Positions 10,569 to 60,518 of a DNA stretch of 64,000 bases are shown here, in pieces. The DNA is from Isoetes taiwanensis (lineage: Eukaryota; Streptophyta; Lycopodiopsida; Isoetales; Isoetaceae), in assembly GCA_021234155.1 (NCBI GenBank), contig JAJEKV010000053.1, positions 7,393,424 through 7,457,423 on the forward strand, given 5' to 3'. A model generated the notes under the pieces. The model was not told where the DNA came from, did no database searches, and saw only the letters and a program-made list of their open reading frames with translations. Each line of letters begins with the position of its first letter. The first letter of the stretch is position 1. The translations under genes were made by a program, and so were the position numbers.

Positions 10569-10757
10569 ACCTAGAGCTGCATAATCATCTGAAACAGACG
10601 TGCCGCCCCTTTGCGCTCTAACTTTAATGGATCTCTTATCTCTGCTGCCCTTCCGGCTTGAAACCCCTTGCCATCAAAATGTGAGCTCAAGGAAGAACTC
10701 GCCTAAATTGCCGCATCATCGATCCAAGGGAAGACATTTCAATGCAATCGTCCATCC

Positions 10758-12122
10758 TGATGAAACATGCAACAGGAATAAAGCAAACACAAGTGAACTG
10801 ATAGCACAAAGCAGAATAAGACGCACAAGAACTGGTGATTGTTCCATTGATCAGATGTGGTACTTATACACTTGTCATAATAGATACGCGCACTTTATTG
10901 GCTCCCGGAACCGAGTTCGCGAACCAATCGGGTTCGCCTGTTTAACCCCACGGATTCGCCCAGCGAACCCGTTAGGTTGACGGGCACCGAGGTGGCGCTT
11001 ACCCACCGGTTCGCCCAAGCCGTAACCCGAACCGTGGTTAAGGGCGAGGCAGGTGTCGGATCAGGTCGAGCAGAGGGCGCTGCCGGATCGCCAGGCGTGG
11101 TCCGATGAATCTCGGCCGGGTATGGATCCGCAAGTGTATGAATCTCGCCGGGCCGGGTATGGATCTGCTGGGTATGAATCTGCTGGGTATGGATCTGCTG
11201 CTGCCGGAGCTTGAGAATGAAGAGCTTGGGCTTGGCCCTGATTTAGCATTAACCTAATTCCTTGCTGCTGCTGTGGGGAAGAAGACGGCGCCGGAGCAGA
11301 TATGGCGATTCCATGGCCGTGAAGTGCAAAAATTGGGCTCCCCCTTCCCAGCACGAATTGCTGTACCTCCGGAACGCCATAGCCTCCACCCCTTTATTCT
11401 TCATATATGCCTTCTCAAACAGATCTTCATATATGTTCTTCTCGAACAGATGTTGGAGGCTGGGTCGCTCAACCAGCATGTCTTCTATAGAGTGTGCGGG
11501 CAAATTTCTAACTGGAGCCAGAGGCTAGTTCGCAAGGGAAAGCCATAACTTATGCCTCTGCCATCTGCAAAACGGCGAAGAATCACAGCTTTGTCTCTGG
11601 ACTTTTCTGTAAATGCTTCCGACTTTGTATTTTTTCTGTAGATGCTTGCCCATATCTCTAGCTCTATATGTTTTCTGTAGATAGCCTGTCTAGATTAATG
11701 CAGATAATGCTCTATGGCAAAGAATCCATAGCTAGACAACTTTCCATAACTAACCGGAGTGCCCAAATCTCTAGCTTAGTTGCTTTAAGCATAGTGTATT
11801 CTTGCCGGAACAGCCGTGGCCGGCAGAACCTCCCCCGCGCTTAACCCTGGTTCGGGTTCGCCCAAGCGAACCCGGTGGGTAGCGCCACCTCAGCGCCACG
11901 TCAACCTAACGGGTTCGCCTGGGCGAATCCGTGGGTTCGCTTAAGCGAATTTTCTGGGTTCGCTTGGGCGAACCCGGCTGGCTCCCGAACTCAATTTCGG
12001 GAGCCGATCGAAGCACCGATAATAGATAGGTACATCAACCAAAACGGTAAGTACCAACTTCCTATAATCAGTCACCAACTTCCCATGATTACAGGCGTAA
12101 ACTTCTTAGATTACATAAATCT
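10758..12122 (-). repeat. 3' LTR of the copia element, split by a MULE
   Basis: Bases 10758-10886 and 12029 to about 12122 together match the 226-bp LTR at 16403-16628 almost base for base. The gap is the Mutator-like insertion plus its duplicated target. The inner edge is imprecise because the last bases differ from the other LTR. I see no clear polypurine tract next to it. Confidence 0.88.
10887..12018. mobile_element. non-autonomous Mutator-like element (long TIRs, 9-10-bp duplication)
   Basis: A 1,132-bp insertion splits the copia LTR. Its ends are imperfect inverted repeats about 165-185 bp long (about 10887-11050 and 11835-12018), both rich in the octamer gggttcgc and its complement. 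Both sides carry ataatagata (10877-10886 and 12019-12028), while the intact LTR holds this sequence once, so the target duplication is 9 or 10 bp. Long TIRs plus a 9-bp duplication define MULEs. The interior (11060-11830) has no transposase. It has a short direct repeat (gggtatggatctgctg) near 11,156-11,202 and open frames of unclear meaning. Confidence 0.85.
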
Positions 12123-16388: not shown

Positions 16389-16402
16389 GTGGGCCCATAA
16401 CC
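16389..16402 (-). promoter_or_regulatory. primer-binding site matching the iMet tRNA anticodon arm
   Basis: The 14 bases directly inside the 5' LTR read gtgggcccataacc on the plus strand. From memory, this equals the anticodon stem-loop of plant initiator tRNA-Met, including its CAU anticodon, rather than the usual tRNA 3' end. Priming from a half-molecule of iMet tRNA is known for Drosophila copia and yeast Ty5. The site abuts the LTR end exactly. Confidence 0.8.
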
Positions 16403-16628
16403 TGATGAAACATGCAACAGGAATAAAGCAAACACAAGTGAACTGATAGCACAAAGCAGAATAAGACGTACAAGAACTGGTGATTGTTCCATTGATCAGA
16501 TGTGGTACTTATACACTTGTCATAATAGATAGGTACATCAACCAAAACGGTAAGTGCCAACTTCCTATAATCAGTCACCAACTTCCCATGATTACAGGCG
16601 TAAACTTCTTAGATTACATAAATCAACA
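16403..16628 (-). repeat. 5' LTR of the copia element, intact 226 bp
   Basis: It starts TG and ends CA on either strand. It is flanked outside by the catcc duplication (16629-16633) and inside by the tRNA-like primer site. It is short for a copia LTR but within the family range. Confidence 0.93.
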
Positions 16629-37160: not shown

Positions 37161-38005
37161 TTTTTGTCGTGTGGCATGCATGACCAGCCCCTCGCATTTC
37201 GAGGTTGTTGTTTTCTTATCTTTGTGTTCTAGTTTGTTGATGTGCAGGTATAGTGGGACGCGCGACTTCGTCTTCTTCAGGCTTCATGGGTTTCTTTGTG
37301 GGAGCATTTTTTTGCAGCCTTACGTTGTGTCCAAACCCCTTGATGAGGGCTTATCACTAGGGTTTTTCCTCGAAAACCTGAAAATGCGGGGTTTTTTAAT
37401 TCCGGTGATAAGTTGTCGGCAGGTACACTTAAGCGACATCTGTAGAAATTTTTTAGAGTCCAGCTGATATAACTAGATATTCCCTATGGTTTTTCATTTT
37501 TTGTGGGTAGCTTGCAAATGTGCAGCTACCCACTCTCAACCATTGAAGAATTCTGTTGAGATGCATGAAAAGCCTAGCTAGCAGATAGATAGGCTTCTCA
37601 TTCATCTCGGTAGATTTTCTATAATGATGGATAGTGGGTATCAGCACACATGCGAACTACCCACGAAGAAAAATAAAGGGAATGTCCAATTATACAGCTA
37701 GGACCCCAGAAAATACAATGCTAATAGATGTTTGGTTTATGTACCTGCCGAAAGCTTATCGCCGGGATTAAAAAACCCCGCCCTTTTGGGTTTCGAGGAA
37801 AAACCCTAGTGATAAGCCTTCGGCAAGGGGCTTGGACAAACGTGAGACTGAGAAATTGCTCCCAAAAAACCCATGAATGGAGAAGTTGAAGCTGCTGCTG
37901 CTTGCCAACTTGTACTTGCACATCACCAACACTAAAACAAATGTGAAAAAACAAACCTCCTAAAGTGGAGGGGCTGATCATGCATGTCACGCGACAACAC
38001 AAAAA
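37161..38005. repeat. 850-bp near-perfect palindrome (fold-back element)
   Basis: The left arm (from tttttgtcgtgtggcatgca at 37161) and the complement of the right arm (ending near 38005) match along almost their whole length with modest divergence. The match runs down to a centre near 37,585 (arms gagatgcatgaaaagcct and aggcttctcattcatctc). Each arm contains the cttatcac...gtgataag stem-loop with the GGTTTTT...GGGGTTTTTTAATCC core seen in the LINE 3' ends. A transcript would fold into a long double-stranded RNA. It could be a fold-back transposon or an inverted duplication that feeds small RNAs. Confidence 0.85.
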
Positions 38006-42835: not shown

Positions 42836-42904
42836 TGGGTCAGGGTATCAAAAGCCATTAAGAATTGGCTAAAGGAATGGGGGAAAGAGATTCACTACCG
42901 GAAA

Positions 42905-45631
42905 ATGGCTCACCTTAGGAATCTTAGAGAAACCCTTCCTCATGCTCCCAGGGATCAAGAGGATCAAATCAGAAAGGAAATAGAAAAAGAGGAGATAAGG
43001 ATTGCTAGAGGATGGAAGCTTAAGTCTAAAATCAGGGAGATCAAGGAGGATGAGAGATGTAACTCAAAATTTTTCTTTATCAAAGCTAAAGGTAGGGCTA
43101 AGAAGAATCATATCTTTGAAGTCCTGGTGGATAATGATTATATTACCAAGGAAGAGGACATCAAGAGAGCTGCAACCATGCATTTCACCAACATTATGGG
43201 AACTAACCATGATTGCCAGCCTGCTATTATGAATAATTTTATAAATCTTCAGGCTAAGGTTAGCAATGAGCATAACAGGGATTTGGAGAAGATTTTCAGT
43301 AACAATGAGCTATATCAAACGGTTAAAGATATGGAGAATGGGAAAACGCCCGGGCCGGATGGCTTGCCAGCTGAATTCTTCAAGAAAGCCTGGCCTATAT
43401 TGGGGGATAGCATCACAAGCTTAGCTAATGAATTCAAAATGCAGAAATGTCTTGATGCTAGGATAAATACTAGCCTCATTGCTCTCATTCCCAAGATTGA
43501 TATGCCTAGCAATTTCTCTTATTACAGACCGATTTCTCTCTCCAATGTGATCTACAAAATTATCTCGGGTACCATTGCAGCTAGGCTTAAGCCTGTCCTT
43601 GAGAAAATTATTAGTTCTTCTCAGTCAGCTTACTTGAAGGACAGATATATTTTAGATAATGTAGTTACAGCCATTCTAGGTTTGAATTGGGCCAAAGATT
43701 CTGGTCAAGACATTGCTCTCATCAAGTTAGATATCACAAAAGCTTTTGATATGGTAAGCTGGAATTTTCTGCTCCAATGTTGCAGTGCTCTTGGCTTCTC
43801 TGAGGAGGTAATAAATATTTTTTATGCTATTTTGAATAACTCTCGTTCCTCTGTCCTAATTAATGGGGAGTGCAGCCCTTTCTTCCCTCTGAGAAGGGGG
43901 GTGAAACAAGGCTGTCCACTGGCCCCTTTCTTGTTCCTAATTGTGATGGAGGCTTTACACAGCAGACTTGAGGAGGCCAAGAATACTAATATGATCCAAG
44001 GGCTTTCTCTGCCTAGCAATAACATTATGGATCAAATTCTTAATGGGCATTTTGCAGATGATACATTTCTCATGGTCTCTATGGAGGAAAACTCGATCAT
44101 CAATACTCAAGCAATCCTGGACCAGTTTGGAGTAGCATCAGGTTGCAAGATCAATCGAACTAAATCAAGGGTGATGGCAAGAGACCAGGTAAAAGGAGGG
44201 CAAACAGCTGCCCTTCTTGACTGTAAGTATGACCCCCCCACCTTAAAGTCCAAGATTCTTGGGATCCCCTTTGCTATTAAAAGTAGCCCCTCTGATATTT
44301 GGGATGGGATTATCGAGAAATTTCAGAGAAAGGTTGACAGCCTTAATTCTAAGTATCTGTTTAAAAATGGAAGGGCCATCATAGCTAATTTTGTCATTGC
44401 TTCTTCATACGTTTATCAATCATCTGTTATTCTTGCTCCCAAGAAGGTCTCTTCAAGGCTCCAGGGTATAATTGGGAGATTCATTGCTTCTGGTCAGAAT
44501 AAGAGGTGTTGGACACCTGTATCCATGGAAGAATGCTGTAAAAAAAAGAAGGATGGTGGTCTAGGAGTGATCAATATAGACAAGCAAGGGATTGCACTCA
44601 CAGCTAAATGTTTTTTTAAAGCTGCTTATGGACTCATCAATCATCCTATTTCTATTATCATTCAGCACTACATTAACAAGTGTCATCCTTTTGGGTGGAG
44701 GAATGTCAAAATGCATCTCCCCCACTCTATTTATTTTCCCTTTACCATTCCTAATTCTACTCCTGGCATTTTGAAGAAATGGATCAGGGCATGGATTCAG
44801 GTTAGAAATATGTATAAGTGGAAAGAAGGCCTGTCTATGGATCAAACTATATTTTGGAATCCTGCTCTGATCACTAATAATGAAAACTTGTGCTTAGCCT
44901 GTCACTTCCCAGATCAGGTTAAGAAATGGTGCTCTAAAGGTATCATCTATGTGCATAACATGTTTAATGACCAGGGCCTGATTCCCTTTGAGAGCTCTCT
45001 CTTGGCTGAAGAAGGCGAGGACTGCAAGTTTTTGTATAATAATATTTGTACCACTTTGACTTATGGCATTTGGTCCATGGATGGCATAAACTGGAACCAT
45101 AACAGTTTGTTGACTTTTACTGTTAGGAATGCTTACAGGTCTTTGATGAGGAATCAGGAGATTGCCATCCACAGAAAGTGGCAAACTGATCCGGACAGAT
45201 GTAGAAGGAACCTCACTTTCATGTGGTCCAGCCCGATTTTCCCAAAAATCAAGTCTTTTATGTGGCAACTTTGGCATAAGGCTCTGGCTACAAATATGAA
45301 GAGGCATAAACTCCACATGGCTGAGTCGGACATCTGCATCAGATGTATGGCAAGCAGGGAGGATGAAAATCATTTATTCAGAACATGCATCTGGGCTGAG
45401 TGGATTCTGGAGCTGGCCTCAGCCTACCTGGGATATGATCTATCCTCCCTCAGCTATCTGGATTTCTTCCTTCCGAATAACCCAACTGATTGGAGGATCT
45501 ATATCCTCCTTTGGAGAATTTGGAAGGGGAGAAATGAATTTGTGTTTAACTATGATATCATACACCCGGAGGGAGTAATTAGACAAATTAAATATGATGT
45601 TGACTGGATTCTTGAAGGACTATCAAACTAA
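42905..45631 (+). CDS. L1 reverse transcriptase with zf-RVT domain
   Basis: An intact 908-residue frame. RT boxes in order: KTPGPDGLPAEFFKKAW, YRPISLSNVIYKIIS, LIKLDITKAFDMVSW (catalytic Asp), RRGVKQGCPLAPFLF, and GHFADDTFLM (FADD catalytic pair, about residue 383). Next come KINRTKS and LGIPF in the thumb. The C-terminus carries the plant zf-RVT motif (KIKSFMWQLWHKAL, CIRCMASREDENHLFRTC). The ATG at 42905 is only the first Met after the TAG, and in-frame sequence extends upstream, so the true ORF2 starts in the endonuclease. The length is usual for the RT half of a plant L1 ORF2. Confidence 0.93.
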   Translation: MAHLRNLRETLPHAPRDQEDQIRKEIEKEEIRIARGWKLKSKIREIKEDERCNSKFFFIKAKGRAKKNHIFEVLVDNDYITKEEDIKRAATMHFTNIMGTNHDCQPAIMNNFINLQAKVSNEHNRDLEKIFSNNELYQTVKDMENGKTPGPDGLPAEFFKKAWPILGDSITSLANEFKMQKCLDARINTSLIALIPKIDMPSNFSYYRPISLSNVIYKIISGTIAARLKPVLEKIISSSQSAYLKDRYILDNVVTAILGLNWAKDSGQDIALIKLDITKAFDMVSWNFLLQCCSALGFSEEVINIFYAILNNSRSSVLINGECSPFFPLRRGVKQGCPLAPFLFLIVMEALHSRLEEAKNTNMIQGLSLPSNNIMDQILNGHFADDTFLMVSMEENSIINTQAILDQFGVASGCKINRTKSRVMARDQVKGGQTAALLDCKYDPPTLKSKILGIPFAIKSSPSDIWDGIIEKFQRKVDSLNSKYLFKNGRAIIANFVIASSYVYQSSVILAPKKVSSRLQGIIGRFIASGQNKRCWTPVSMEECCKKKKDGGLGVINIDKQGIALTAKCFFKAAYGLINHPISIIIQHYINKCHPFGWRNVKMHLPHSIYFPFTIPNSTPGILKKWIRAWIQVRNMYKWKEGLSMDQTIFWNPALITNNENLCLACHFPDQVKKWCSKGIIYVHNMFNDQGLIPFESSLLAEEGEDCKFLYNNICTTLTYGIWSMDGINWNHNSLLTFTVRNAYRSLMRNQEIAIHRKWQTDPDRCRRNLTFMWSSPIFPKIKSFMWQLWHKALATNMKRHKLHMAESDICIRCMASREDENHLFRTCIWAEWILELASAYLGYDLSSLSYLDFFLPNNPTDWRIYILLWRIWKGRNEFVFNYDIIHPEGVIRQIKYDVDWILEGLSN

Positions 45632-45954: not shown

Positions 45955-47482
45955 AAAAGGAAACTCTTATCCGATGGACCTGTCAGAAATATCTTACCCC
46001 GAACTTTTAATAGACATAACTCTATCTAATTTTGTTATAAGTGCTAAATTTTGTGACTTATAATAGCTAGGAGGAGTCCTCACCCTCCTATCTATTCTCG
46101 GGTTAAACTTCCCTGTACAAAGTTTTTTTTCTGTACCTTTTATACTCCCTTAAATATAAATATACCGACCAATCAAAAAAAAAAAAAAAAAAACCTTTAT
46201 ACAATCTGTTTCCAGATTCCCAAACTTAAAAATTCTTACAGAAAAATTAAGTCTGCAATTTGCAGCCCTAGAAAATCTACAGGACAAATTTCCTAGGCCA
46301 AAGATAAAGTTAGATTAAAACTCCAGATATTGGATAAATTCAAAGGTACACATATTTCCAAAAAATCAAATTGTTTAACCATTAAACCTTATGATTGTAT
46401 CCAATGAGGTATCCCATCGAATGTATACATAGGTTCCAAACTGTACATGTTTACAGCAGCTTTCATACATTGAATTTCTCCTTATGGAACATGCTTACTT
46501 GATAGCTTGTAGATTGAACCATAGCTTAAGTAGAAGTAGAAACATCAAAGCATGGAACAAGAAAACCTGGTTACCTGCAGTTAAAGTACCCAAAGATTAG
46601 CCGGCCATTAGGGTAATTAAGGCGTAACCGGCATGTGTAAGCTATAGATTTTCTTGGGTTTATCCCCTTTACCATGCCACAATGTATTAAAACATAACTG
46701 TGCACGTGAATAGTTCCAAGTTCTACTGGTATTAAAAACAGTGAGGCAAGATTTAGTTATATTTCCAGATCGTTCATGCTCAGATGCTCCCTTACCTTAG
46801 AGCCATCGTGAGTTTTTACTTGAAGTTACCCATGTACTTACTTCATGATTGCCATTAGTTTATGGCCAGCCCCTTGTGCTGTGCTGCTCAACTAAAAATC
46901 AAATTACCAGTAAATCCAGACCTCTGTCCATTAAACACCATCACATGGAATTTACTTATTTAGTCCAGTGGTATATTCTGCTAGACCATTTACCTATTAT
47001 TTTACCAAGGCTTATCTAACCTTAGCTATTTCTATATATGCAACAACATGGATCATTTAACCTTGCGCATTTATCCTATCGAAGTGATACGAGCAGGTTT
47101 ATATCATCTAATCAATCTCATGCCAGATCATAGTCCATATAATGGGTTAACACCTGCCAGACGTATGTAACTTGAACCGGTCAGACAAACATGAGATCTT
47201 CTTCATAATTAGGAATAAAAACTTAATCAAATGCAAGTTAAAGAATGCATTATTAGGCTCAATACCTTTTGTTACCTAAAAACCCTTTGGATTATTCAGA
47301 TCTGGACAATTTTAAGCGACAAGTTTGTAGACTGCAGCTTTTCATGGTCATATACCAGATCCAGTTAAAGCAGAATGTAAGATGACAGAAATATTTCATG
47401 CTTTGTTCATTTTCATAAGCAGATCACTAGATCTAAGTCTATATTACTCATTAAGTATAAATAAAAGGAAGAAACCCAAAAC

Positions 47483-47815
47483 CTGAATGGTCTTCGATTT
47501 TTGGAGAGCTCCCAATTGTAAAGATGAGTTGGTTGGTGCCTTCATAGGATCTGGTTCTTTGTGAGAAGTCTCAACCTCTTTGATTGCAGCCTCTTGCACA
47601 GTGTTTTCAGCAGCTTTGGTGCTAGCATTCCCTTCCTTGATGTTGGTATTACTAACATCATTTCCAGAGATTGAAGAACTCTTACTGTTATTCTGCCCAG
47701 GGCCTTTGGCTGCTCTTCTAAAATCGAACAATTTCTTGTTCTTTGGCCCTGCTTCCCTTTCAAACTCCAGCCTCTTCCTAGTAGCCATGTTTAAATCACC
47801 CTTCTTTCTACCCAT
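47483..47815 (-). CDS. exon 1 of the array gene, copy in unit A
   Basis: The frame starts MGRKKGDLNMATRKRLEFER. It is Lys/Arg-rich, then Ser/Asn-rich, and ends at a splice donor after KSKTIQ (junction at 47,482-47,483). A TATAAATA box lies about 90 bp upstream (47903-47910). In this unit there is no following unit, so the exon would be orphaned against the LINE. The basic N-terminus could bind nucleic acid or carry a nuclear signal; this is inference. Confidence 0.6.
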
Positions 47816-48423
47816 TAACCAATAGTTACATCTGATCCAAAGCATCTCTTCCTCACCAAGATGTATAATGTGAAGGGCCATCCGAATGGATTGACATGCA
47901 CATATTTATAGCAGAATATGGCGTGTACTTAGACATCTCCCATACATCTTAAGTTGTGTCCTTAAGTTTCCAGCAGAGAAAGAACATACCTAAAACGGAA
48001 TTTGTGAGCAGCTTATTGCCGGACAGAGGTCACGCCTTCATCTGTGGCCGTTCCTTGATACCGGCCACGGTAGATGTCGATCATACATAACCCTAAAAGG
48101 TTAAAAGACAATTTTGAATAAACCATTACGTTATCTTTCTTGTATTTTTAATTATAATTTGGGAAAACAATACTCCTTATACCATTACCTCATATGTCCA
48201 TATTTTTCCAATCATGTTAGATAGAGTAATGGTTTTCAATTATTACTTCCATTATCTGAGATATCCTCATAATAATAAAAAAGCCTTCCTCCATCCGTTG
48301 TTTGGGGGGCAATTGCAAACCTAGATGTTAATGCAATTCATACAGCAAGGGGTGCAGGGCCTTGCTGTAGCAAAGGCCCTGCCCTCACAATATTTTAACA
48401 AGTAAGACATCTCCAGCACCTAT

Positions 48424-50475
48424 TTAGCCTTTTGCTATTTTCGCATTAAGTACACGTACCATGTCTCCAAAGTTGTACAGAAGACCAGGGAAGTGTTCTT
48501 TCTGCAGATATCTTGAGACAGTTCTGCAGACCTCTTTTTCACCAAAACCATTGTCAGCAAATGTCATTATCAGGTTGTATATATCTTCGGCTGCACCAGC
48601 ATGATCAGAGTGTGCATAAAGATAGGGCATGATTTGTGAGATTATTACTTTAAGAGCCTGCCAGTATGGTCTGCAGCTATCTGCTTTGATAAACTTGTAA
48701 ACTTGGAAAGGTAGATTAACTCTTTTATCATACCTGGAGATGGAGTAAAGCCCCTATTCTTATCTTCAACTTTAATAGTGATGTTGAGAAAGTTTGCTAT
48801 GTAACCATACTTCACATTGTCAGCAACCCTATAAATAGTTTCATCCTTAATGCCGAGATGTTTCATGTTGTAAACTGTAAGTTCCCCGTCTGCCAAGAAG
48901 AAGTTTTCAATATTATTAGCATTGATAACATTGAGGTCATCAATGTATCTGGCTGCATAGTCGAACTTTTTAATGTCCAGAAACCTTCCATAATGAGCAA
49001 GTTTTAACATGAATTTTAACTCATGCCAGGCCAGGTACAGATTGCACCAAGCTGGGCTACATGAGAATCCCATGGGAATGCCTTTTTTCTGTCTCCATAT
49101 ATCATTACCTGATTGGAGGTAGCAGTGGGTCAGGAGCCATGCATTTATTTCATTGAAGTCATCTTTCTTCACAATGGACCAGCATGTTTTTTCAATATCC
49201 TTTTTAATGTGTCTTTCCCATTTAATTTTGAAGTCTCCATCTTTTTTTTTTATTAACATGTGCAAACTACGTTGATCCAGTCTCATATGTTCCCATACTA
49301 ATTCACTGATGTCATTAAGGATTTCAATGATCCCTTCTTCTCCATAAAGAGGTATATTCTCATAACACTTTGTGATGTCAGCCGAGAATACATTATCAAT
49401 CCTGCATGGAAGGTTCAGGATTACATCATAGGAAGAATTTACTATCCATGATGCATTAATTTTGCCTTTGTAGAATAGTCCAGAGGGTGCAAAGGAGTCT
49501 CATTTGCAAAGTAGAGGCCAGATCTCCAAGAAGTTGTTGAGTATGGCAGTGATCCATTGTGCCATCTCTGAAAAGATGGATTCAAATGCATTAGTTAACC
49601 ATCTGTATTCCGATTTGTGTGCTTTGAAACTTGCCATCAGATATGGGAGTTTATTATGGCAGCATTTTGCATTTGTTAACATCTTCTGAATGTCTTCCTT
49701 ACATTGCATCTTGATGCTATCAGGTTCATCTGCTATTTTCTCAAAGTCATCCCCATTCATTCTTTTTCTGGCCATATCTAGAATATGTTCTTGGCAAATG
49801 AACACTGGATTGTTACCAGCTTTGTCAAGCCCAGAAATGTATAAATTGTGTATCAACCATTCCAGGTTTTTACAAACCTCAGGATCATTCCACAGAAATC
49901 TTCTAATTGGTAGATCTCTCCTGATTTCTACAACTTCCATGTGTGCATATTTCATCAGTAATGAAGTAATGTTTTCCTTATCTGAGTCAGTCAGGTCCAA
50001 AGTATCATATTTATGAACCTCCCAAAATTGCTGGCATAGCATAGCAAAATCCTCCATAAAACTTTGCACACTAAAGCTGCAATTAGGGATATGATTGAGC
50101 CCCTTGGCAAACGCCATTCTTAATTTTTTGCAATGGATAACTCCCAGATCTGTAGTTCTCACATGACCTATATTAGGGTCAATGTATTTTGCAAGAAATG
50201 GATTGCAAAGACGGGCATTTTATATTTTTGTTTTCAAAGAAATATAGAGTAAGGTTTATGTACTGGCCCTTTATCCGCCCAATGTATCTCCAGGCAAATG
50301 TAGTTTTATCAACCAAATCCAGCCCACTGTCCTGGAGTGCTTCCCCAATGACTGTGTAAAATATTTTTCTGACATCCATTTTTTCCAAGGATTTAGACAG
50401 GAAAGTAAGATGTACTATTCTCTTGTCCTTTGATTCTTTGTTAGACTTCAAGTGTCTTTTTCTGTTGATATCCAT
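48424..50475 (-). pseudogene. Penelope-like reverse transcriptase, unit A copy
   Basis: This is colinear with the intact 682-residue frame of unit B but split into four pieces by indels near 48,640, 49,290-49,500 and 50,170. Catalytic boxes remain (GIPMGFSCSPAWCN, YAARYIDDLNV). Several of the differences from unit B fall at CAG or CTG. Confidence 0.85.
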
Positions 50476-50692
50476 GGTGATGACTCTGGTATGTGCATTA
50501 TTTTCCTACATGAACAGAATAGTTAGTAAAACGTGCTATATTAGCTAAACTGAAACAAATTAAGCTATAAGCCAAAAAGATGTCTTTATATCAGTATTGT
50601 CAAAAAAGTTTTACAATATGGCATGAGCTTAGAAGCTCTATTATATCAAAGCAAATGCTATATGGTGACTAATGTCACACTGTTTCATTTTC

Positions 50693-52211
50693 TCACTGAG
50701 TCTGTTCAACTTGTTCAATATCAGGGGGTGTATTGTCATCCAGAGATATAACTTTATTGCCACCTTTGATGATAGTATCACTGTCGGAGCTAGCAGCAAC
50801 CTGTGCAGTATTACATTTAGCCAAAGTAGGGTCCACGGTAATTCTGGGCGCCATTTTGAAAACCACTTTAGGAGCAGGTTTAGTATTCCTGCTTTTGATA
50901 TTAGTCTTCTTATACATAGAGTTTCTATTAGTGAAATCTGAACTTTCCAGCAGAAATGAGATAGGTTTCACTGTTTTTTCAACTATGTCCGCCATCCTTG
51001 AGTTCCCATAGAGGGCTTTCAGATTGGTATCAGAGTTATCAGCATATATCATGGTCATTTCCACCATAGTTTTTCTGACTTCCAGATAAGCCAAATGTGC
51101 AATAACAGCAGGTTTTAGTACATTATTAAGGAGTTTAGTGATGATCACCATTTTCTCAATAGGGGAAGTCTCTTCATAAACTGACTCCATATGGTTTAAT
51201 AAGTACCAGATTGCCTGGTCAAACCAAATAATGCCAAAAGATCTGCGCATGTAGATTTTTGTTCTTGAAGCATTTGCACTTGAAATATGGCCCATGAGTA
51301 CGCCACATCCTTTTGAGGAAAAAATCATCTCTTGTTTCCCCGGGGAAGGCCATGTGGCCCTTCTGGCACAGTTGAATAGTAGGGTCCTTGTTGCATACTT
51401 CATCAAGAAAGGTCATATCAAACGGGAGCCTGTGGTTAATATAAGTAAAGATTTTCTCCAACTTTATCAAGTAGCTTGTTTTAGCCTTGCTGATTTCATC
51501 TTTAGTGATCCCCGCTAATGCAATCCAAGTGTCGAGTTGATTGGGGCTAGGGCAATCAAATTTTGACTTTTCCAAATAGCGTGGTCATAGCCAAGAGCCT
51601 AGACATTCAACATTGTTCAATAATGATTGGGAAACAGGAGGAATTTCCTAATGTGAGATTAGGCACCTCTTCCAGAGTGCCTTGGCTATCTTGAGGATTT
51701 TCAGAGGTATTAGCCAGCTGGTCACCAATAAAGAGATCTTTATCAGAGAAAAGACATTCAGATCCTTCTGTTTCATTGTTATCCCTCATTAGCGTATCGA
51801 AATGAGTTAGGGATACCATTACCCTTCTCTAAGGCAGTAAGACCTTTCATAAAATTACGAGCAATGTCATCCTCTTGGCATGTTCTCTGATATAGGATAC
51901 TATTGATGTTGTTATAGACTTCCAGGATAGCCCCTTTGCACTTATTGTATTCGAAATTTGCTTTCTTCAGAAAGGAGAATAACTTGAACCAGCCGTTGAA
52001 GCCCAACCAAGTGACTGGGGATCTTGTTTTGTCCACCAGGTTGCATTCTTTGAAAGTGATATACTCATGAATTTCTTTGTTTCTAATGCAGGCCAAAATG
52101 GTCTGCACTGCAATATTGGGGCTCTCAATGCCACACTCATTATACTTGAAGAGTACTAGCTCCTTGATCCAATGATCACTAGCTTCAATTTCAGTTATCT
52201 TTGGAAGTTCC
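50693..52211 (-). pseudogene. exon 2 (ORF1-like) of the array gene, unit A copy
   Basis: It begins at an acceptor (tttttcag, exon from 52211: ELPKITEIEASDHW) and runs to a TGA at 50693 through three shifted frames. It has no start codon of its own. The product is unknown. It contains CNKDPTIQLCQKGHMAF and KCKCFKN, possible metal-binding clusters, and an acidic stretch (GSECLFSDKDLFIGD). Confidence 0.6.
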
Positions 52212-53597
52212 TGAAAAATTATTCATATAATTAGCATTCTACAAATCCTGTAAGAATATAACTTTATCTTGGTCTCTAGTAAAACTAGAAAGCTGAGTCT
52301 AAGATAAAAACCTTTATACAACTGTTTCCAGATTCCCAAACTTAAAAATTCTTACGTAAAAATTAAGTTCCAGCAATTTTTGCCCTAGAAAATCTCCACA
52401 GACAAATTTCCTAGGCCAAAGATAAAGTTAGATTAAAACTCCAGATATTGGATAAATTCAAAGATACACATATTTCCAAAAAATCAAATTGTTTAACCAT
52501 TAAACCTTATGATTGTATCCAATGAGGTATCCCATCGAATGTATACATAGGTTCCAAACTGCACATGTTTACAAAGACTTTCTTTCATACATTGAATTTC
52601 TCCTTATGGAACATGCTTACTTGATAGCTTGTAGATTGAACCATAGCTTAAGTAGAAGTAGAAACATCAAAGCATGGAACAAGAAAACACGGTTACCCGC
52701 AGCTAAATAGCCAAAGATTAGCTGTGGTAGGGTAATTAAGGCGTAACCATTGTGTAAGCTATAGGTTTTCTTGGGTTTATCCCTTTACCATGCCACAATG
52801 TATTAAAACATAATGCGGCATGTGAATAGTTCCAAGTTCTACCGGTATTAAAAAAAAAGTGAGGCAAGATTTAGTTATATTTCCAGATCCTTCATGCTCG
52901 GATGCTCCCTTACCTTAGAGCCATCGTGAGTTTTACTTGAAGTTACCCATGTACTTACTTCATGATTGCCATTAGTTTATGGCCAGCCCCTTGTGCTGTG
53001 TTGCTCAACTAAAAATCAAATTACTCGCAGTAAATCCAGACCTCTGTCCATTAAACACCATCACATGGAATTTACTTATTTAGTCCAGTGGTATATTCTG
53101 CTAGACCATTTACCTATTATTTTACCAAGGCTTATCTAACCTTAGCTATTTCTATATATGCAACAACATGGATCATTTAACCTTGCGCATTTATCCTATC
53201 GAAGTGATACGAGCAGGTTTATATCATCTAATCAATCTCATGCCAGATCATAGTCCATATAATGGGTTAACACCTGCCAGACGTATGTAACTTGAACCGG
53301 TCAGACAAACATGAGATCTTCTTCATAATTAGGAATAAAAACTTAATCAAATGCAAGTTAAAGAATGCATTATTAGGCTCAATACCTTTTGTTACCTAAA
53401 AACCCTTTGGATTATTCAGATCTGGACAATTTTAAGCGATTGTAGACTGCAGCTTTTCATGGTCATATACCAGATCCAGTTAAAGCAGAATGTAAGATGA
53501 TAGAAATATTTCATGCTTTGTTCATTTTCATAAGCAGATCACTAGATCTAAGTCTATATTACTCATTAAGTATAAATAAAAGGAAGAAACCCAAAAC

Positions 53598-53930
53598 CTG
53601 AATGGTCTTCGATTTTTGGAGAGCTCCCAATTGTAAAGATGAGTTGGTTGGTGCCTTCATAGGATCTGGTTCTTTGTGAGAAGTCTCAACCTCTTTGATT
53701 GCAGCCTCTTGCACAGTGTTTTCAGCAGCTTTGGTGCTAGCATTCCCTTCCTTGATGTTGGTATTACTAACATCATTTCTAGAGATTGAAGAACTCTTAC
53801 TGTTATTCTGCCCAGGGCCTTTGGCTGCTCTTCTAAAATCGAACAATTTCTTGTTCTTTGGCCCTGCTTCCCTTTCAAACTCCAGCCTCTTCCTAGTAGC
53901 CATGTTTAAATCACCCTTCTTTCTACCCAT
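53598..53930 (-). CDS. exon 1 of the array gene, copy in unit B
   Basis: It has the same MGRKKGDLNM start and the same donor after KTIQ (53,597-53,598), with TATAAATA at 54016-54023. The reading phase at the donor is 0. The acceptor at 52,212 in unit A also opens in phase 0, so a transcript crossing the A/B junction would join them in frame. Confidence 0.65.
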
Positions 53931-54536
53931 TAACCAATAGTTACATCTGATCCAGCATCTCTTCCTCACCAAGATGTATAGCGGGAAGGGCCATCCGAAT
54001 GGATTGACATGCACATATTTATAGCGTAATATGGCGTGTACTTAGACATCTCCCATACATCTTAAGTTGTGTCCTTAAGTTTCCAGCAGAGAAAGAACAT
54101 ACCTAAAACGGAATTTGTGAGCAGCTTATTGCCGGACAGAGGTCACGCCTTCATCTGTGGCCGTTCCTTGATACCGGCCACGGTAGATGTCGATCATACA
54201 TAACCCTAAAAGGTTAAAAGACAATTTTGAATAAACCATTACGTTATCTTTCTTGTATTTTTAATTATAATTTGGGAAAACAATACTCCTTATACCATTA
54301 CCTCATATGTCCATATTTTTCCAATCATGTTAGATAGAGTAATGGTTTTCAATTATTACTTCCATTATCTGAGATATCCTCATAATAATAAAAAAGCCTT
54401 CCTCCATCCGTTGTTTGGGGGGCAATTGCAAACCTAGATGTTAATGCAATTCATACAGCAAGGGGTGCAGGGCCTTGCTGTAGCAAAGGCCCTGCCCTCA
54501 CAATATTTTAACAAGTAAGACATCTCCAGCACCTAT

Positions 54537-56585
54537 TTAGCCTTTTGCTATTTTCGCATTAAGTACACGTACCATGTCTCCAAAGTTGTACAGAAGACCA
54601 GGGAAGTGTTCTTTCTGCAGATATCTTGAGACAGTTCTGCAGACCTCTTTTTCACCAAAACCATTGTCAGCAAATGTCATTATCAGGTTGTATATATCTT
54701 CGGCTGCACCAGCATGATCAGAGTGTGCATAAAGATAGGGCATGATTTGTGAGATTATTACTTTAAGAGCCTGCCAGTATGGTCTGCAGCTATCTGCTTT
54801 GATAAACTTGTAAACTTGGAAGGGTAGATTAACTCTTTTATCATACCTGGAGATGGAGTAAAGCCCCCTATTCTTATCTTCAACTTTAATAGTGATGTTG
54901 AGAAAGTTTGCTATGTAACCATACTTCACATTGTCAGCAACCCTATAAATAGTTTCATCCTTAATGCCGAGATGTTTCATGTTGTAAACTGTAAGTTCCG
55001 GCCCCGCCAAGAAGAAGTTTTCAATATTATTAGCATTGATAACATTGAGGTCATCAATGTATCTGGCTGCATAGTCGAACTTTTTAATGTCCAGAAACCT
55101 TCCATAATGAGCAAGTTTTAACATGAATTTTAACTCATGCCAGGCCAGGTACAGATTGCACCAAGCTGGGCTACATGAGAATCCCATGGGAATGCCTTTT
55201 TTCTGTCTCCATATATCATTACCTGATTGGAGGTAGCAGTGGGTCAGGAGCCATGCATTTATTTCATTGAAGTCATCTTTCTTCACAATGGACCAGCATG
55301 TTTTTTCAATATCCTTTTTAATGTGTCTTTCCCATTTAATTTTGAAGTCTCCATCTTTTTCTTTTATTAACATGTGCAGCTTCTGTTGATCCAGTCTCAT
55401 ATGTTCCCATACTAATTCACTGATGTCATTAAGGATTTCAATGATCCCTTCTTCTCCATAAAGAGGTATATTCTCATAACACTTTGTGATGTCAGCCGAG
55501 AATACATTATCAATCCTGCATGGAAGGTTCAGGATTACATCATAGGAAGAATTTACTATCCATGATGCATTAATTTTGCCTTTGTAGAATAGTCTGTAGG
55601 GTGCAGTGAGTCTGTTGCAAAGTAGAGGCCAGATCTCCAAGAAGTTGTTGAATATGGCAGTGATCCATTGTGCCATCTCTGAAAAGATGGATTCAAATGC
55701 ATTAGTTAACCATCTATATTCCGATTTGTGTGCTTTGAAACTTGCCATCAGATATGGGAGTTTATTATGGCAGCATTTTGCATTTGTTAACATCTTCTGA
55801 ATGTCTTCCTTACATTGCATCTTGATGCTATCAGGTTCATCTGCTATTTTCTCAAAGTCATCCCCATTCATTCTTTTTCTGGCCATATCTAGAATATGTT
55901 CTTGGCAAATGAACACTGGATTGTTACCAGCTTTGTCAAGCCCAGAAATGTATAAATTGTGTATCAACCATTCCAGGTTTTTACAAACCTCATGATCATT
56001 CCACAGAAATCTTCTAATTGGTAGATCTCTCCTGATTTCTACAACTTCCATGTGTGCATATTTCATCAGTAATGAAGTAATGTTTTCCTTATCTGAGTCA
56101 GTCAGGTCCAAAGTATCATATTTATGAACCTCCCAAAATTGCTGGCATAGCATAGCAAAATCCTCCATAAAACTTTGCACACTAAAGCTGCAATCAGGGA
56201 TATGATTGAGCCCCTTGGCAAACGCCATTCTTAATTTTTTGCAATGGATAACTCCCAGATCTGTAGTTCTCACATGACCTATATTAGGGTCAATGTATTT
56301 TGCAAGAAATGGATTGCAGCACGGGCATTTTATATTTTTGTTTTCAGCAAATATAGAGTAAGGTTTATATACTCTGTCCTTTATCTGCCCAATGTATCTC
56401 CAGGCAAATGTAGTTTTATCAACCAAATCCAGCCCACTGTCCTGGAGTGCTTCCCCAATGACTGTGTAAAATATTTTTCTGACATCCATTTTTTCCAAGG
56501 ATTTAGACAGGAAAGTAAGATGTACTATTCTCTTGTCCTTTGATTCTTTGTTAGACTTCAAGTGTCTTTTTCTGTTGATATCCAT
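54537..56585 (-). CDS. Penelope-like reverse transcriptase, intact 682 aa
   Basis: Single frame from ATG 56585 to TAA. N-terminal third: CPCC (residues 87-90) followed by GHVRTTDL and CKKLRMAFAKG, a segment I associate with large Penelope-type or related RT ORFs. RT core: YRWLTNA (290-296), motif A FSADITKCYENIPL (Asp365), motif B GIPMGFSCSPAWCN (464-477), and motif C ARYIDDLNV (Asp511, Asp512). The thumb contains FLNITI and SRYDKRVNLPF. No GIY-YIG endonuclease is visible at either end, and there is no RNase H or integrase. The A-to-B spacing is about 100 residues, longer than in LTR or LINE RTs and reminiscent of the TERT finger insertion. In-frame sequence extends upstream to an acceptor (gttcatgtag), so it may be a third exon. 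Confidence 0.85.
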   Translation of the reverse strand: MDINRKRHLKSNKESKDKRIVHLTFLSKSLEKMDVRKIFYTVIGEALQDSGLDLVDKTTFAWRYIGQIKDRVYKPYSIFAENKNIKCPCCNPFLAKYIDPNIGHVRTTDLGVIHCKKLRMAFAKGLNHIPDCSFSVQSFMEDFAMLCQQFWEVHKYDTLDLTDSDKENITSLLMKYAHMEVVEIRRDLPIRRFLWNDHEVCKNLEWLIHNLYISGLDKAGNNPVFICQEHILDMARKRMNGDDFEKIADEPDSIKMQCKEDIQKMLTNAKCCHNKLPYLMASFKAHKSEYRWLTNAFESIFSEMAQWITAIFNNFLEIWPLLCNRLTAPYRLFYKGKINASWIVNSSYDVILNLPCRIDNVFSADITKCYENIPLYGEEGIIEILNDISELVWEHMRLDQQKLHMLIKEKDGDFKIKWERHIKKDIEKTCWSIVKKDDFNEINAWLLTHCYLQSGNDIWRQKKGIPMGFSCSPAWCNLYLAWHELKFMLKLAHYGRFLDIKKFDYAARYIDDLNVINANNIENFFLAGPELTVYNMKHLGIKDETIYRVADNVKYGYIANFLNITIKVEDKNRGLYSISRYDKRVNLPFQVYKFIKADSCRPYWQALKVIISQIMPYLYAHSDHAGAAEDIYNLIMTFADNGFGEKEVCRTVSRYLQKEHFPGLLYNFGDMVRVLNAKIAKG

Positions 56586-56802
56586 GGTGATGACTCTGGT
56601 ATGTGCATTATTTTCCTACATGAACAGAATAGTTAGTAAAACGTGCTATATTAGCTAAACTGAAACAAATTAAGCTATAAGCCAAAAAGATGTCTTTATA
56701 TCAGTATTGTCAAAAAAGTTTTACAATATGGCATGAGCTTAGAAGCTCTATTATATCAAAGCAAATGCTATATGGTGACTAATGTCACACTGTTTCATTT
56801 TC

Positions 56803-58313
56803 TCACTGAGTCTGTTCAACTTGTTCAATATCAGGGGGTGTATTGTCATCCAGAGATATAACTTTATTGCCACCTTTGATGATAGTATCCTTTTGAGCTA
56901 GCAAAGAACTCCAGGCAAGATTACATTTAGCCAAAGTAGGGTCCACGTAATTTCGGGCCATTTTGAAAACCACTTTAGGAGCAGGTTTAGTATTCCTGCT
57001 TTTGATATTAGTCTTCTTATACATAGAGTTTCTATTAGTGAAATCTGAACTTTCCAGCAGAAATGAGATAGGTTTCACTGGTTTTTCAACTATGTCCGCC
57101 ATCCTTGAGTTCCCATAGAGGGCTTTCAGATTGGTATCGAGTTATCAAAGATATATCATGGTCATTTCCACCATAGTTTTTTTCGACTTCCGGATAAGCC
57201 AAATGTGCAATAACAAAGAGGTTTTAGTACATTATTAAGGAGTTTAGTGATGATCACCATTTTCTCAATAGGGGAAGTCTCTTCATAAACCGACTCCATA
57301 TGGTTTAATAAGTACCCATTGCCTGGTCAAACCAAATAATGCCGCATCTGCATGTAGATTTTTTGTTCTTGAAGCATTTGCACTTGAAATATGGCCCATG
57401 AGTACGCCACATCCTTTTGAGGAAAAAATCATCTCTTGTTTCCCCGGGGAAGGCCATGTGGCCCTTCTGGCACAGTTGAATAGTAGGGTCCTTGTTGCAT
57501 ACTTCATCAAGAAAGGTCATATCAAACGGGAGCCCAGGGTTAATATAAGTAAAGATTTTCTCCAACTTTCTTTGTAGCTTGTTTTAGCCTTGCTGATTTC
57601 ATCTTTAGTGATCCCTGCTAATGCAATCCAAGTGTCAGAGTTGATTGGGGCTAGGGCACCGAAATTTTGACTTTTCCAAATAGCGTGGTCATAGCCAGCA
57701 GCTAGACATTCAACAGATTGTTCAATAATGATTGGGAAACAGGAGGAATTTCCTAATGTGAGATTAGGCACCTCTTCCAGAGTGCCTTGGCTATCTTGAG
57801 GATTTTCAGAGGTATTAGCCAGCTGGTCACCAATAAAGAGATCTTTATCAGAGAAAAGACATTCAGATCCTTCTGTTTCATTGTTATCCTCATTAGCAGA
57901 ATGAAATGAGTTAGGGATACCATTACCCTTCTCTAAGGCAGTAAGACCTTTCATAAAATTACGAGCAATGTCATCCTCTTGGCATGTTCTCTGATATAGG
58001 ATACTATTGATGTTGTTATAGACTTCCAGGATAGCCCCTTTGCACTTATTGTATTCGAAATTTGCTTTCTTCAGAAAGGAGAATAACTTGAACCAGCCGT
58101 TGAAGCCCAACCAAGGATTTGGGGATCTTGTTTTGTCCACTGGTTGCATTCTTTGAAAGTGATATACTCATGAATTTCTTTGTTTCTAATGCAGGCCAAA
58201 ATGGTCTGCACTGCAATATTGGGGCTCTCAATGCCACACTCATTATACTTGAAGAGTACTAGCTCCTTGATCCAATGATCACTAGCTTCAATTTCAGTTA
58301 TCTTTGGAAGTTC
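56803..58313 (-). pseudogene. exon 2 (ORF1-like) of the array gene, unit B copy
   Basis: Acceptor ttttttcag, then exon from 58313 (ELPKITEIEASDHW). It continues through WLGFNGWFKLFSFLKKANF, the acidic stretch, WIALAGITKDEISKAKTSY, CQKGHMAFPGETRDDFFLKR and a Lys-rich end to a TGA at 56803. Three one-base shifts interrupt it, mostly where unit A differs at CAG or CTG. No known domain. The position before RT suggests an ORF1 or N-terminal extension of the RT protein. Confidence 0.6.
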
Positions 58314-59703
58314 CTGAAAAAATATTCATATAATTAGCATTCTACAAATCCTGTAAGAATATAACTTTATCTTGGTCTCTAGTAAAACTAGAAAGCTGAG
58401 TCTAAGATAAAAAAACCTTTATACAATCTGTTTCCAGATTCCCAAACTTAAAAATTCTTACAGAAAAATTAAGTCTGCAATTTGCAGCCCTAGAAAATCT
58501 ACAGGACAAATTTCCTAGGCCAAAGATAAAGTTAGATTAAAACTCCAGATATTGGATAAATTCAAAGGTACACATATTTCCAAAAAATCAAATTGTTTAA
58601 CCATTAAACCTTATGATTGTATCCAATGAGGTATCCCATCGAATGTATACATAGGTTCCAAACTGTACATGTTTACAGCAGCTTTCATACATTGAATTTC
58701 TCCTTATGGAACATGCTTACTTGATAGCTTGTAGATTGAACCATAGCTTAAGTAGAAGTAGAAACATCAAAGCATGGAACAAGAAAACCTGGTTACCTGC
58801 AGTTAAACAGCCAAAGATTAGCCAGGGTAGGGTAATTAAGGCAGAACTGACAGGTAAGCTATAGGTTTTCTTGGGTTTATCCCCTTTACCATGCCACAAT
58901 ATATTAAAACATAACTGTGCACGTGAATAGTTCCAAGTTCTACTGGTATTAAAAACAGTGAGGCAAGATTTAGTTATATTTCCAGATCCTTCATGCTCAG
59001 ATGCTCCCTTACCTTAGAGCCATCGTGAGTTTTTACTTGAAGTTACCCATGTACTTACTTCATGATTGCCATTAGTTTATGGCCAGCCCCTTGTGCTGTG
59101 CTGCTCAACTAAAAATCAAATTACTCGCAGTAAATCCAGACCTCTGTCCATTAAACACCATCACATGGAATTTACTTATTTAGTCCAGTGGTATATTCTG
59201 CTAGACCATTTACCTATTATTTTACCAAGGCTTATCTAACCTTAGCTATTTCTATATATGCAACAACATGGATCATTTAACCTTGCGCATTTATCCTATC
59301 GAAGTGATACGAGCAGGTTTATATCATCTAATCAATCTCATGCCAGATCATAGTCCATATAATGGGTTAACACCTGCCAGACGTATGTAACTTGAACCGG
59401 TCAGACAAACATGAGATCTTCTTCATAATTAGGAATAAAAACTTAATCAAATGCAAGTTAAAGAATGCATTATTAGGCTCAATACCTTTTGTTACCTAAA
59501 AACCCTTTGGATTATTCAGATCTGGACAATTTTAAGCGACAAGTTTGTAGACTGCAGCTTTTCATGGTCATATACCAGATCCAGTTAAAGCAGAATGTAA
59601 GATGACAGAAATATTTCATGCTTTGTTCATTTTCATAAGCAGATCACTAGATCTAAGTCTATATTACTCATTAAGTATAAATAAAAGGAAGAAACCCAAA
59701 AAC

Positions 59704-60037
59704 CTGAATGGTCTTGATTTTTGGAGAGCTCCCAATTGTAAAGATGAGTTGGTTGGTGCCTTCATAGGATCACGGTTCTTTGTGAGAAGTCTCAACCTCT
59801 TTGATTGCAGACCTCTTGCACGGTGTTTTCAGCAGCTTTGGTGCTAGCATTCCCTTCCTTGATGTTGGTATTACTAACATCATTTCCAGAGATTGAAGAA
59901 CTCTTACTGTTATTCTGCCCAGGGCCTTTGGCTGCTCTTCTAAAATCGAACAATTTCTTGTTCTTTGGCCCTGCTTCCCTTTCAAACTCCAGCCTCTTCC
60001 TAGTAGCCATGTTTAAATCACCCTTCTTTCTACCCAT
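59704..60037 (-). CDS. exon 1 of the array gene, copy in unit C (would drive unit B)
   Basis: MGRKKGDLNM start at 60037, Ser/Asn-rich middle, donor at 59,703. A one-base indel near 59,810 (CAG/CTG site) disturbs the frame relative to units A and B. The downstream partner is the acceptor at 58,314 in unit B. Confidence 0.6.
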
Positions 60038-60122
60038 TAACCAATAGTTACATCCGATCCAAAGATCTCTTCCTCACCAAGATGTATACGGGAAGGGCCA
60101 TCCGAATGGATTGACATGCACA

Positions 60123-60130
60123 TATTTATA
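60123..60130 (-). promoter_or_regulatory. TATA box in the leading unit
   Basis: TATAAATA on the minus strand, 86 bp upstream of the exon 1 ATG, is conserved in the same place in units A (47903-47910) and B (54016-54023). It lies inside the part retained in the truncated unit, which fits a promoter for the downstream copy. Confidence 0.6.
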
Positions 60131-60493
60131 GCAGAATATGGCGTGTACTTAGACATCTCCCATACATCTTAAGTTGTGTCCTTAAGTTTCCAGCAGAGAA
60201 AGAACATACCTAAAACGGAATTTGTGAGCAGCTTATTGCCGGACAGAGGTCACGCCTTCATCTGTGGCCGTTCCTTGATACCGGCCACGGTAGATGTCGA
60301 TCATACATAACCCTAAAAGGTTTAAAGACAATTTTGAATAAACCATTACGTTATCTTTCTTGTATTTTTAATTATAATTTGGAAAAACAATACTCCTTAT
60401 ACCATTACCTCATATGTCCATATTTTTCCAATCATGTTAGATAGAGTAATGGTTTTCAATTATTACTTCCATTATCTGAGATATCCTCATAAT

Positions 60494-60518
60494 AAAAAAA
60501 AAAAAAAAAAAAAAAAAA
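60494..60518. repeat. A25 run at the right edge of the array
   Basis: Twenty-five consecutive A separate the truncated unit from unrelated sequence (catattttatac). The other edge of the array is also an A-run (46175-46193), and the internal junctions have 5 and 7 A. Confidence 0.95.

Follow-up and report, generated by a model that had tools for sequence, protein, structure and literature searches.

A retroelement with long terminal direct repeats was characterised in Isoetes taiwanensis, where it forms a head-to-tail array at positions 46194-60493, minus strand, of the 64,000-nucleotide stretch analysed here (the window; contig JAJEKV010000053.1, positions 7,393,424 to 7,457,423, assembly GCA_021234155.1). 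We consider it fairly probable that this is a multi-copy element built as pseudo-long terminal repeat (pLTR), internal region and second pLTR, most likely of the Penelope-like kind, which copies unspliced sense RNA from a site inside its own intron 1.

In the array a leader of 2.09 kb is followed by two units, each 6.11-6.12 kb long. The 2.09-kb pLTR occurs three times, as the leader (repeat A, 58409-60493), as pLTR B (52306-54395), which separates the two internal regions, and as pLTR C (46194-48282), the final copy, with its 3′ edge AAAGG at 46194. Self-alignment of the window gave 97% identity across 8,253 bp between 46189-54395 and 52306-60502, and 98.4% between 46187-48282 and 58409-60502, that is between pLTR C and the leader. 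Each pLTR carries a promoter-like sequence, the first coding exon (exon 1) and the 5′ portion of a putative intron 1. The internal region comprises the remainder of this intron, exon 2, an open reading frame (ORF1) that closes with its own stop, and, beyond a short spacer, exon 3, which encodes a reverse transcriptase (RT). All three window repeats contain a TATAAATA box slightly more than 90 nt ahead of ATG...MGRKKGDLNMATRKR, at 93 nt from the ATG in the leader. Exon 1 was located at 59704-60037 in the leader, 53598-53930 in pLTR B and 47483-47815 in pLTR C (MGRKKGDLN...KTIQ); exon 2 at 56806-58313 in unit B, with its stop at 56803-56805, and at 50696-52211 in unit C; and exon 3 at 54537-56615 and 48424-50505, respectively, all on the minus strand. 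The window copies are mostly broken. Exon 1 of the leader and exon 2 of both units are frameshifted, and the RT of unit C has frameshifts and stops; still open are the RT of unit B (692 amino acids, aa) and the exon 1 copies in pLTRs B and C.

The exon borders are conserved in sequence and phase. Exon 1 (M.RKKGDLN.ATRK...) is about 101-120 aa long and ends in [CA]AG/GT, phase 0, in the intact copies examined; the window repeats have CAG/GT, the last exon base being 59704 in the leader and 53598 in unit B. Exon 2 opens at a conserved phase-0 acceptor and closes at its own stop after a conserved tail, and other loci show the same exon 1 donor and exon 2 acceptor junctions. Past the exon 2 stop, a further phase-0 acceptor (TGTAG/G, 56615 in unit B) opens exon 3, whose aligned members have no methionine in common close to the start. 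On the simplest reading exon 1 may be spliced either to exon 2 or to exon 3, and two proteins, from exons 1 and 2 and from exons 1 and 3, may be produced. A donor at the very end of exon 2 was considered and rejected at a mean score of -1.6. Copies free of intron 1 numbered zero among 22 same-strand distances from exon 1 to RT, all of at least 4.6 kb among the matches listed (100 of 417 exon-1 and 81 of 315 RT places); without intron 1 this distance is estimated at no more than 3.7 kb.

The preliminary description of this DNA had reported two 6.1-kb units and a 2.08-kb leader head to tail, with a TATA box and an ATG exon near the 3′ end of every unit. The array is as described, and the TATA box and exon 1 were seen in all three repeats; the leader had been called truncated, but it is a complete repeat whose 5′ edge is common to other loci. 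The splice coordinates were correct (phase-0 donors at 59704 and 53598, phase-0 acceptor at 58313). A third coding exon, the RT exon with its own phase-0 acceptor, has to be added.

Copies elsewhere were sought in the whole assembly (1.658 Gb, 1,110 contigs). Exact motifs gave 417 matches for exon 1, with none for the reversed pattern, and 315 for the RT, and in a separate RT search 64 of 4,791 candidate places were scored, many of them without an internal stop. Seventeen other RT loci were fetched, L001-L014 from the RT search and L020-L022 chosen for lacking the exact exon-1 motif; L023 and L024 are additional flank pieces, and the left edge of L003 was read via L023. Self-comparison revealed the repeat-internal-repeat plan in all fetched loci except L002 and L010 (right side interrupted), and 10 of the 17 visibly stop after one right repeat. 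Solitary copies with the repeat-internal-repeat plan are therefore common, and bare units are not the usual condition. Left and right repeats within one locus are mostly 97-98% alike (92-96% in L003, L008, L012 and L020-L022, and 99.8% over the partial repeat of L014), whereas repeats of other loci match those of the window partially, mostly at 73-88% and at no more than 94% over short stretches. Since repeats are closer within than between loci, both repeats of one copy stem from a single source.

Exon 1 is present in the left repeat of 15 of the 17 other RT loci, although broken in several (e.g. L003, L005 and L012); the two lacking it, L002, cut within the exon-2 region, and L014, with a truncated left repeat, are damaged copies. 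A same-strand exon-1 pair 5.5-8 kb apart was seen for 35 of the 100 matches listed out of the 417, and exon 1 lies upstream within 9 kb for 18 of 31 RT places among the matches listed (31 of the 64 RT places and 44 of 150 exon-1 places). Motif matches were also compared over a shared contig range, covering 100 of the 417 exon-1 and 81 of the 315 RT matches (81 of 100 RT matches listed), and 53 of these 81 RT places had no exact exon-1 motif. An RT without exon 1 was rejected for the three of the 53 that were fetched (L020-L022), all of which have a diverged exon 1 in both repeats. Elsewhere, five same-strand exon-1 motifs stand within 31 kb (G000:C922:232629-263592) at spacings of 6.4, 5.9, 6.3 and 12.3 kb, and judged by these five, arrays longer than that of the window seem to exist. 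None of 35 pattern stretches in viral contigs was confirmed as a relative.

The repeats have fixed edges. Wherever the left edge was resolved, in 16 of 16 loci, the left repeat opens at the same T-tract as its right counterpart (L001, L003, L004-L013, L020-L022 and the window); in L009 it starts 9 nt past the T-tract. The 5′ edge reads T7ATTA directly after GGAGGNAGG, and the 3′ edge AAAGG-T7 or a close variant; a right edge of AAAGG or a near variant followed by T's was found at 11 places (L003, L006, L008, L009, L011-L014, L020, L022 and the window). The T-tract of the repeat is immediately preceded by a purine-rich motif (CGGNNGGAGGNAGG) in all 16 of the 16 loci aligned, with variation in three of them, and in the window it adjoins pLTR C at 48283-48296 (GGATGGAGGAAGGC in the element sense) and pLTR B at 54396-54409. 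Read from these edges, the leader is a complete terminal repeat with an LTR-like fixed border and not the product of chance truncation. The full leader of L001 stands about 1 kb away from the internal region, and the right side of this locus runs on into a further unit. At L001:2476-3452, in the sense direction, the leading repeat and a T-run are followed by about 1 kb of other DNA and then by the last 87 bp of the repeat and the internal region.

These genome-wide data bear on how the leader had been interpreted. That other copies would come with a truncated leader containing exon 1 holds for exon 1, as counted above, and not for the truncation, the leader being a full repeat whose edge is fixed. 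The preceding repeat does contain promoter-like sequence and exon 1, with the putative intron across the junction, but the picture of isolated single units unable to express the protein starts from a state that is unusual in this genome. The joining of exon 1 had been thought to complete one full protein; exon 1 proved to be a constrained coding exon, but the products may be two.

The T-runs at the outer borders exceed those of the element itself. Outer left runs measure 12-34 nt (11 loci) versus 5-11 at the start of the right repeat, and outer right runs 11-26 nt (7 loci ending in flank) versus 5-8 at inner junctions, the 16-nt run of the displaced L001 leader being an exception to the latter range. 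In the window the inner run at the 3′ edge of pLTR B is 5 nt, and the flanks, T-runs in the element sense, are an A25 tract at 60494-60518 on the 5′ side and an A19 tract, read directly, at 46175-46193 on the 3′ side. This difference in length points to a T-tract in the element sense as the target. For the window array the target is the poly(A) tail of a long interspersed nuclear element (LINE), whose ORF2 lies on the plus strand at 42836-45631 (LINE RT and zf-RVT by Pfam). The left flank of L006, L008 and L010, and by eye of L003, is the 3′ end of another copy of the same element, so that copies also insert against one another. Target duplications are unrecognisable inside T-runs, and a search for a target-site duplication of the LINE, as proof that its tail was split, found no match. 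LINE 3′ ends as a general target were likewise not supported: the flanks of L012 and L003 are repeats, but their matches stop about 110 and 23 nt, respectively, short of the poly(A). By eye, the right flanks of L006, L009, L011 and L012 share a short ATTAATG motif before the target poly(A), which would fit a preference for a single repeat family as target.

The coding exons bear the marks of constraint. The ratio of nonsynonymous to synonymous change (dN/dS) of exon 1 was 0.18-0.35 in 7 of 9 pairs, two being not computable; dS was 0.21 and 0.89 in two pairs and above 1.2 in five. These values indicate that exon 1 is a coding exon under purifying selection. For exon 2 the ratio was 0.06-0.30 (3 of 6 pairs) and for exon 3 0.05-0.16 (6 of 12 pairs). 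ORF1 is Cys/His-rich and 508-548 aa long in nine open copies, and gave no credible Pfam match, with GIY-YIG in none of nine members. Exon 3 gave RVT_1 in 15 of 15 aligned members (best 2.3e-6, the window copy falling below the curated cut-off) and GIY-YIG in none of the 15. Protease, RNase H and integrase families were absent by Pfam from both ORF1 and the RT exon. Profile searches against solved structures matched none for RT or ORF1, and the AlphaFold models were of low confidence, with predicted local distance difference test (pLDDT) values of 52 for RT and 41 for ORF1. GIY-YIG places elsewhere in the genome were examined as possible Penelope elements and rejected, none of the four inspected out of 121 carrying an RT of the array type. 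These four (L016-L019) hold GIY-YIG frames of 118-156 aa away from any such RT; they are preceded by helicase-like frames in L016 and, at a distance of about 5 kb, by an exon-1 copy of the array element in L018.

Both boundaries of the repeat carry conserved RNA structures. A pseudoknot-like element lies 3′ of the RT stop (54434-54500 in unit B; 48321-48387 in unit C, 80.7 bits by covariance model), in which GCAGGGCCUU pairs with AAGGCCCUGC and a UACAGC loop with GCUGUA further downstream; a longer single hairpin is, by eye, an alternative fold of these bases. Over 16 sequences 96.8% of cells are paired, 16 of them being two-sided, values reached by none of 500 shuffles and no slid version. 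A model of the first helix, whose alignment covered all matched copies except L002 and the second copy of the window, finds both RT 3′ ends of the window and 16 of 17 RT loci, missing L010. The purine-rich motif follows some 30-70 nt beyond this element. At the 3′ boundary of a copy the order is hairpin A, AAAGG-T7 and hairpin B, all inside the putative intron 1 (58360-58452 in the window, by alignment). Hairpin A folds in 17 of 17, with a mean z of -2.6 and 15 below -1, and hairpin B has 94.6% of cells paired and 17 two-sided cells (0 of 500 shuffles). Alignment A3 was made without L002, and alignment A4 without L002 and L010. G-U cells exceed A-C cells by 12:1 and 7:0 in the two structures counted, suggesting that the acting molecule is probably sense RNA. 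Rfam at permissive settings gave three matches in the array, at E 1.1-5.4, none credible and none a ribozyme, and at gathering scores no match in 15 of the 17 loci; a hammerhead ribozyme was thus not detected by Rfam in the array and these 15 loci, although a minimal form may escape Rfam.

A cycle consistent with these observations may be outlined. The promoter of the leading pLTR would give one pre-mRNA, in which splicing would link exon 1 either with exon 2 (ORF1) or with exon 3 (RT), and the unspliced sense RNA would serve as template. Reverse transcription would start at AAAGG-U7, the 3′ end of the target poly(A) pairing with the U-tract as primer; such priming from an A-strand on a U-tract would be the mirror image of LINE priming. 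Because this start site lies in intron 1, spliced mRNA would lose it and could not be a template, and the introns would survive. At the opposite edge the A-tract of the complementary DNA would pair with the target T-tract. The second pLTR might stem from tandem RNA, circular RNA or a template jump, and tandem arrays from further rounds of copying or from later recombination. One may speculate further that splicing gates the whole life cycle, with the start site in intron 1 barring spliced mRNA, a shared exon serving two proteins, a structured RNA, possibly a processing or self-cleaving element, setting the 5′ edge and poly(A) targets being A-primed on the U-tract, but in this complete form the proposal is tentative and rather doubtful. 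An internal start has been reported for the anole Penelope enzyme, 111-118 nt into its own ORF and within a stem-loop (PMC11167929).

Several observations weigh against copying of unspliced sense RNA by a Penelope-like element. Single insertions end in the right pLTR and then target T's, without hairpin B, so that the template would need to be tandem, circular or read-through RNA; the right end of L005 lies about 50 nt beyond the usual edge, and L002 and L014 have no full left repeat. A full TATA match upstream of exon 1 occurs in 4 of 17 loci (window, L001, L020 and L022), the others matching 6-7 of 8 positions versus 6.1-6.6 for shuffles, and branch-site motifs exceed the shuffled level only modestly (9 of 15 and 10 of 16 versus 5.0 expected). 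Within exon 2 a conserved phase-0 GT reaches the score of the exon-1 donors (mean 6.2 versus 6.1, by an approximate matrix), which makes splicing from the first part of exon 2 to exon 3 possible. For the pseudoknot-like element the number of pairs with two-sided change was reached by 2 of 500 shuffles and that of further pair types by 33, and for hairpin B by 75 and 22; covariation was moreover counted over related sequences, and its independence is exaggerated. The RT exon also matches the group II intron RT model weakly in 13 of 15 members (best 2.9e-5), and its profile matches the plant's own TERT weakly over a 44-column motif-B stretch (E 0.0021, probability 13%), compared with E 0.13 for the other exon of TERT and 0.38 for the window LINE. 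We take the element to work like a Penelope-like element, with a probable membership judged from anatomy and not from a tree, and promoter, splicing, template and priming are all deduced from sequence.

The fixed edges call to mind a true LTR-like cycle, in which strand transfer would generate the repeats as LTRs, GGAGGNAGG would act as polypurine tract and recombination between LTRs would have built the array. The purine-rich motif adjoins the right repeat throughout the aligned loci, as this would predict, yet neither a protease nor an RNase H or integrase family accompanies the RVT_1 match, the repeats end in T7ATTA and AAAGG instead of TG...CA, and by eye no site resembling a transfer RNA primer follows the left repeat; we regard such a cycle as unlikely. 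Preservation of introns would also be explained by an antisense RNA template, which has been proposed in print for rotifer Penelope elements (PMC3846280). The helices tolerate G-U and hardly A-C, as expected for sense RNA, and this makes an antisense template distinctly improbable here, although the bias speaks for a function of sense RNA and not strictly for the template strand. Finally, the array could be an ordinary Penelope-like one with a leader truncated by accident, exon 1 being noise and the RT expressed otherwise. The recurrent left edge at the T-tract, the constraint on exon 1 and its presence in most left repeats, and an RT frame that opens at an acceptor and whose aligned members have no start codon in common near the beginning make this explanation very hard to sustain.

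The preferred reading, a Penelope-like element copied from unspliced sense RNA, draws on anatomy, since pLTRs, tandem units, a coding start within the pLTR, retained putative introns and an internal 3′ edge match Penelope-like elements. The pseudo-LTRs in full or partial tandem are a Penelope trait, the promoter being placed in the pLTR by the TATA match alone, and the fixed-edge repeats next to a purine-rich motif, a putative polypurine tract, are a trait of LTR retrotransposons. Presumably the RT stretch KCxC...GHVRTTDL...LR..F.KG resembles Naiad/Chlamys-type RTs; that clade has an N-terminal GIY-YIG domain, which was not found in the Isoetes element. Besides Athena, Coprina is another endonuclease-deficient Penelope-like element. 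Like Athena, the Isoetes element has no recognisable endonuclease, and such elements are described from selected animals, fungi, protists and plants (PMC3846280). They attach largely at chromosome ends with telomeric repeats, whereas the resolved outer edges of the Isoetes copies lie in T-runs. With Penelope/Poseidon elements it shares pLTRs in tandem or partial tandem in which a putative promoter accompanies the first part of the ORF, retention of putative introns, copies ending at a putative internal RT start site near a stem-loop, and AT-rich targets (PMC3846280, PMC11167929). Of the ORF of rotifer Pen2a, the first 12 aa, or 22 with the tail, are encoded within the pLTR (PMC3846280). Penelope/Poseidon elements combine GIY-YIG endonuclease and RT in one ORF, whereas the Isoetes element has ORF1 and RT in separate exons, a coding exon of about 101-120 aa in a 1.7-2.7-kb repeat, its boundary in a putative intron, a leading repeat with a fixed edge, and neither GIY-YIG nor hammerhead detected. 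Judged by the aligned repeats, the LTR-like fixed edges are a real difference from Penelope-like elements. LTR retrotransposons share the fixed-edge terminal direct repeats and the purine-rich motif before the right repeat, but the Isoetes element differs from them in its T-tract ends, in the coding exon inside the repeat and in lacking protease, RNase H and integrase families.

Outside the array, the window holds a minisatellite at 1432-2963 with a 26-bp unit and longer periods of 78 and 104 bp (TGTCCAGGTTTACCACTAGAC...), and an 834-bp near-palindrome at 37164-37997, 76% self-complementary and perhaps a fold-back repeat. Two pairs of blocks, 10756-10886 with 16401-16531 and 12019-12121 with 16522-16624, are 99% identical; they stand apart at 10.7-12.1 kb and adjacent at 16.4-16.6 kb, as if the latter were an intron-free or rearranged copy.

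In the titles and abstract openings searched, mostly outside the subscription literature, no lycophyte Penelope element of such design was found, and the word 'Penelope' is absent from the main text of the Isoetes genome paper (PMC8566536). How Penelope-like elements, which move through RNA, keep their introns is an open question, and antisense and unspliced sense templates are both weighed in the rotifer paper (PMC3846280). With 417 exon-1 and 315 RT exact motifs, a boundary within its own putative intron and covarying RNA structures at its two edges, the Isoetes family makes this question testable in one plant. If the reading proposed here is true, the family would represent a Penelope-like design with LTR-like edges, standing between two textbook classes.

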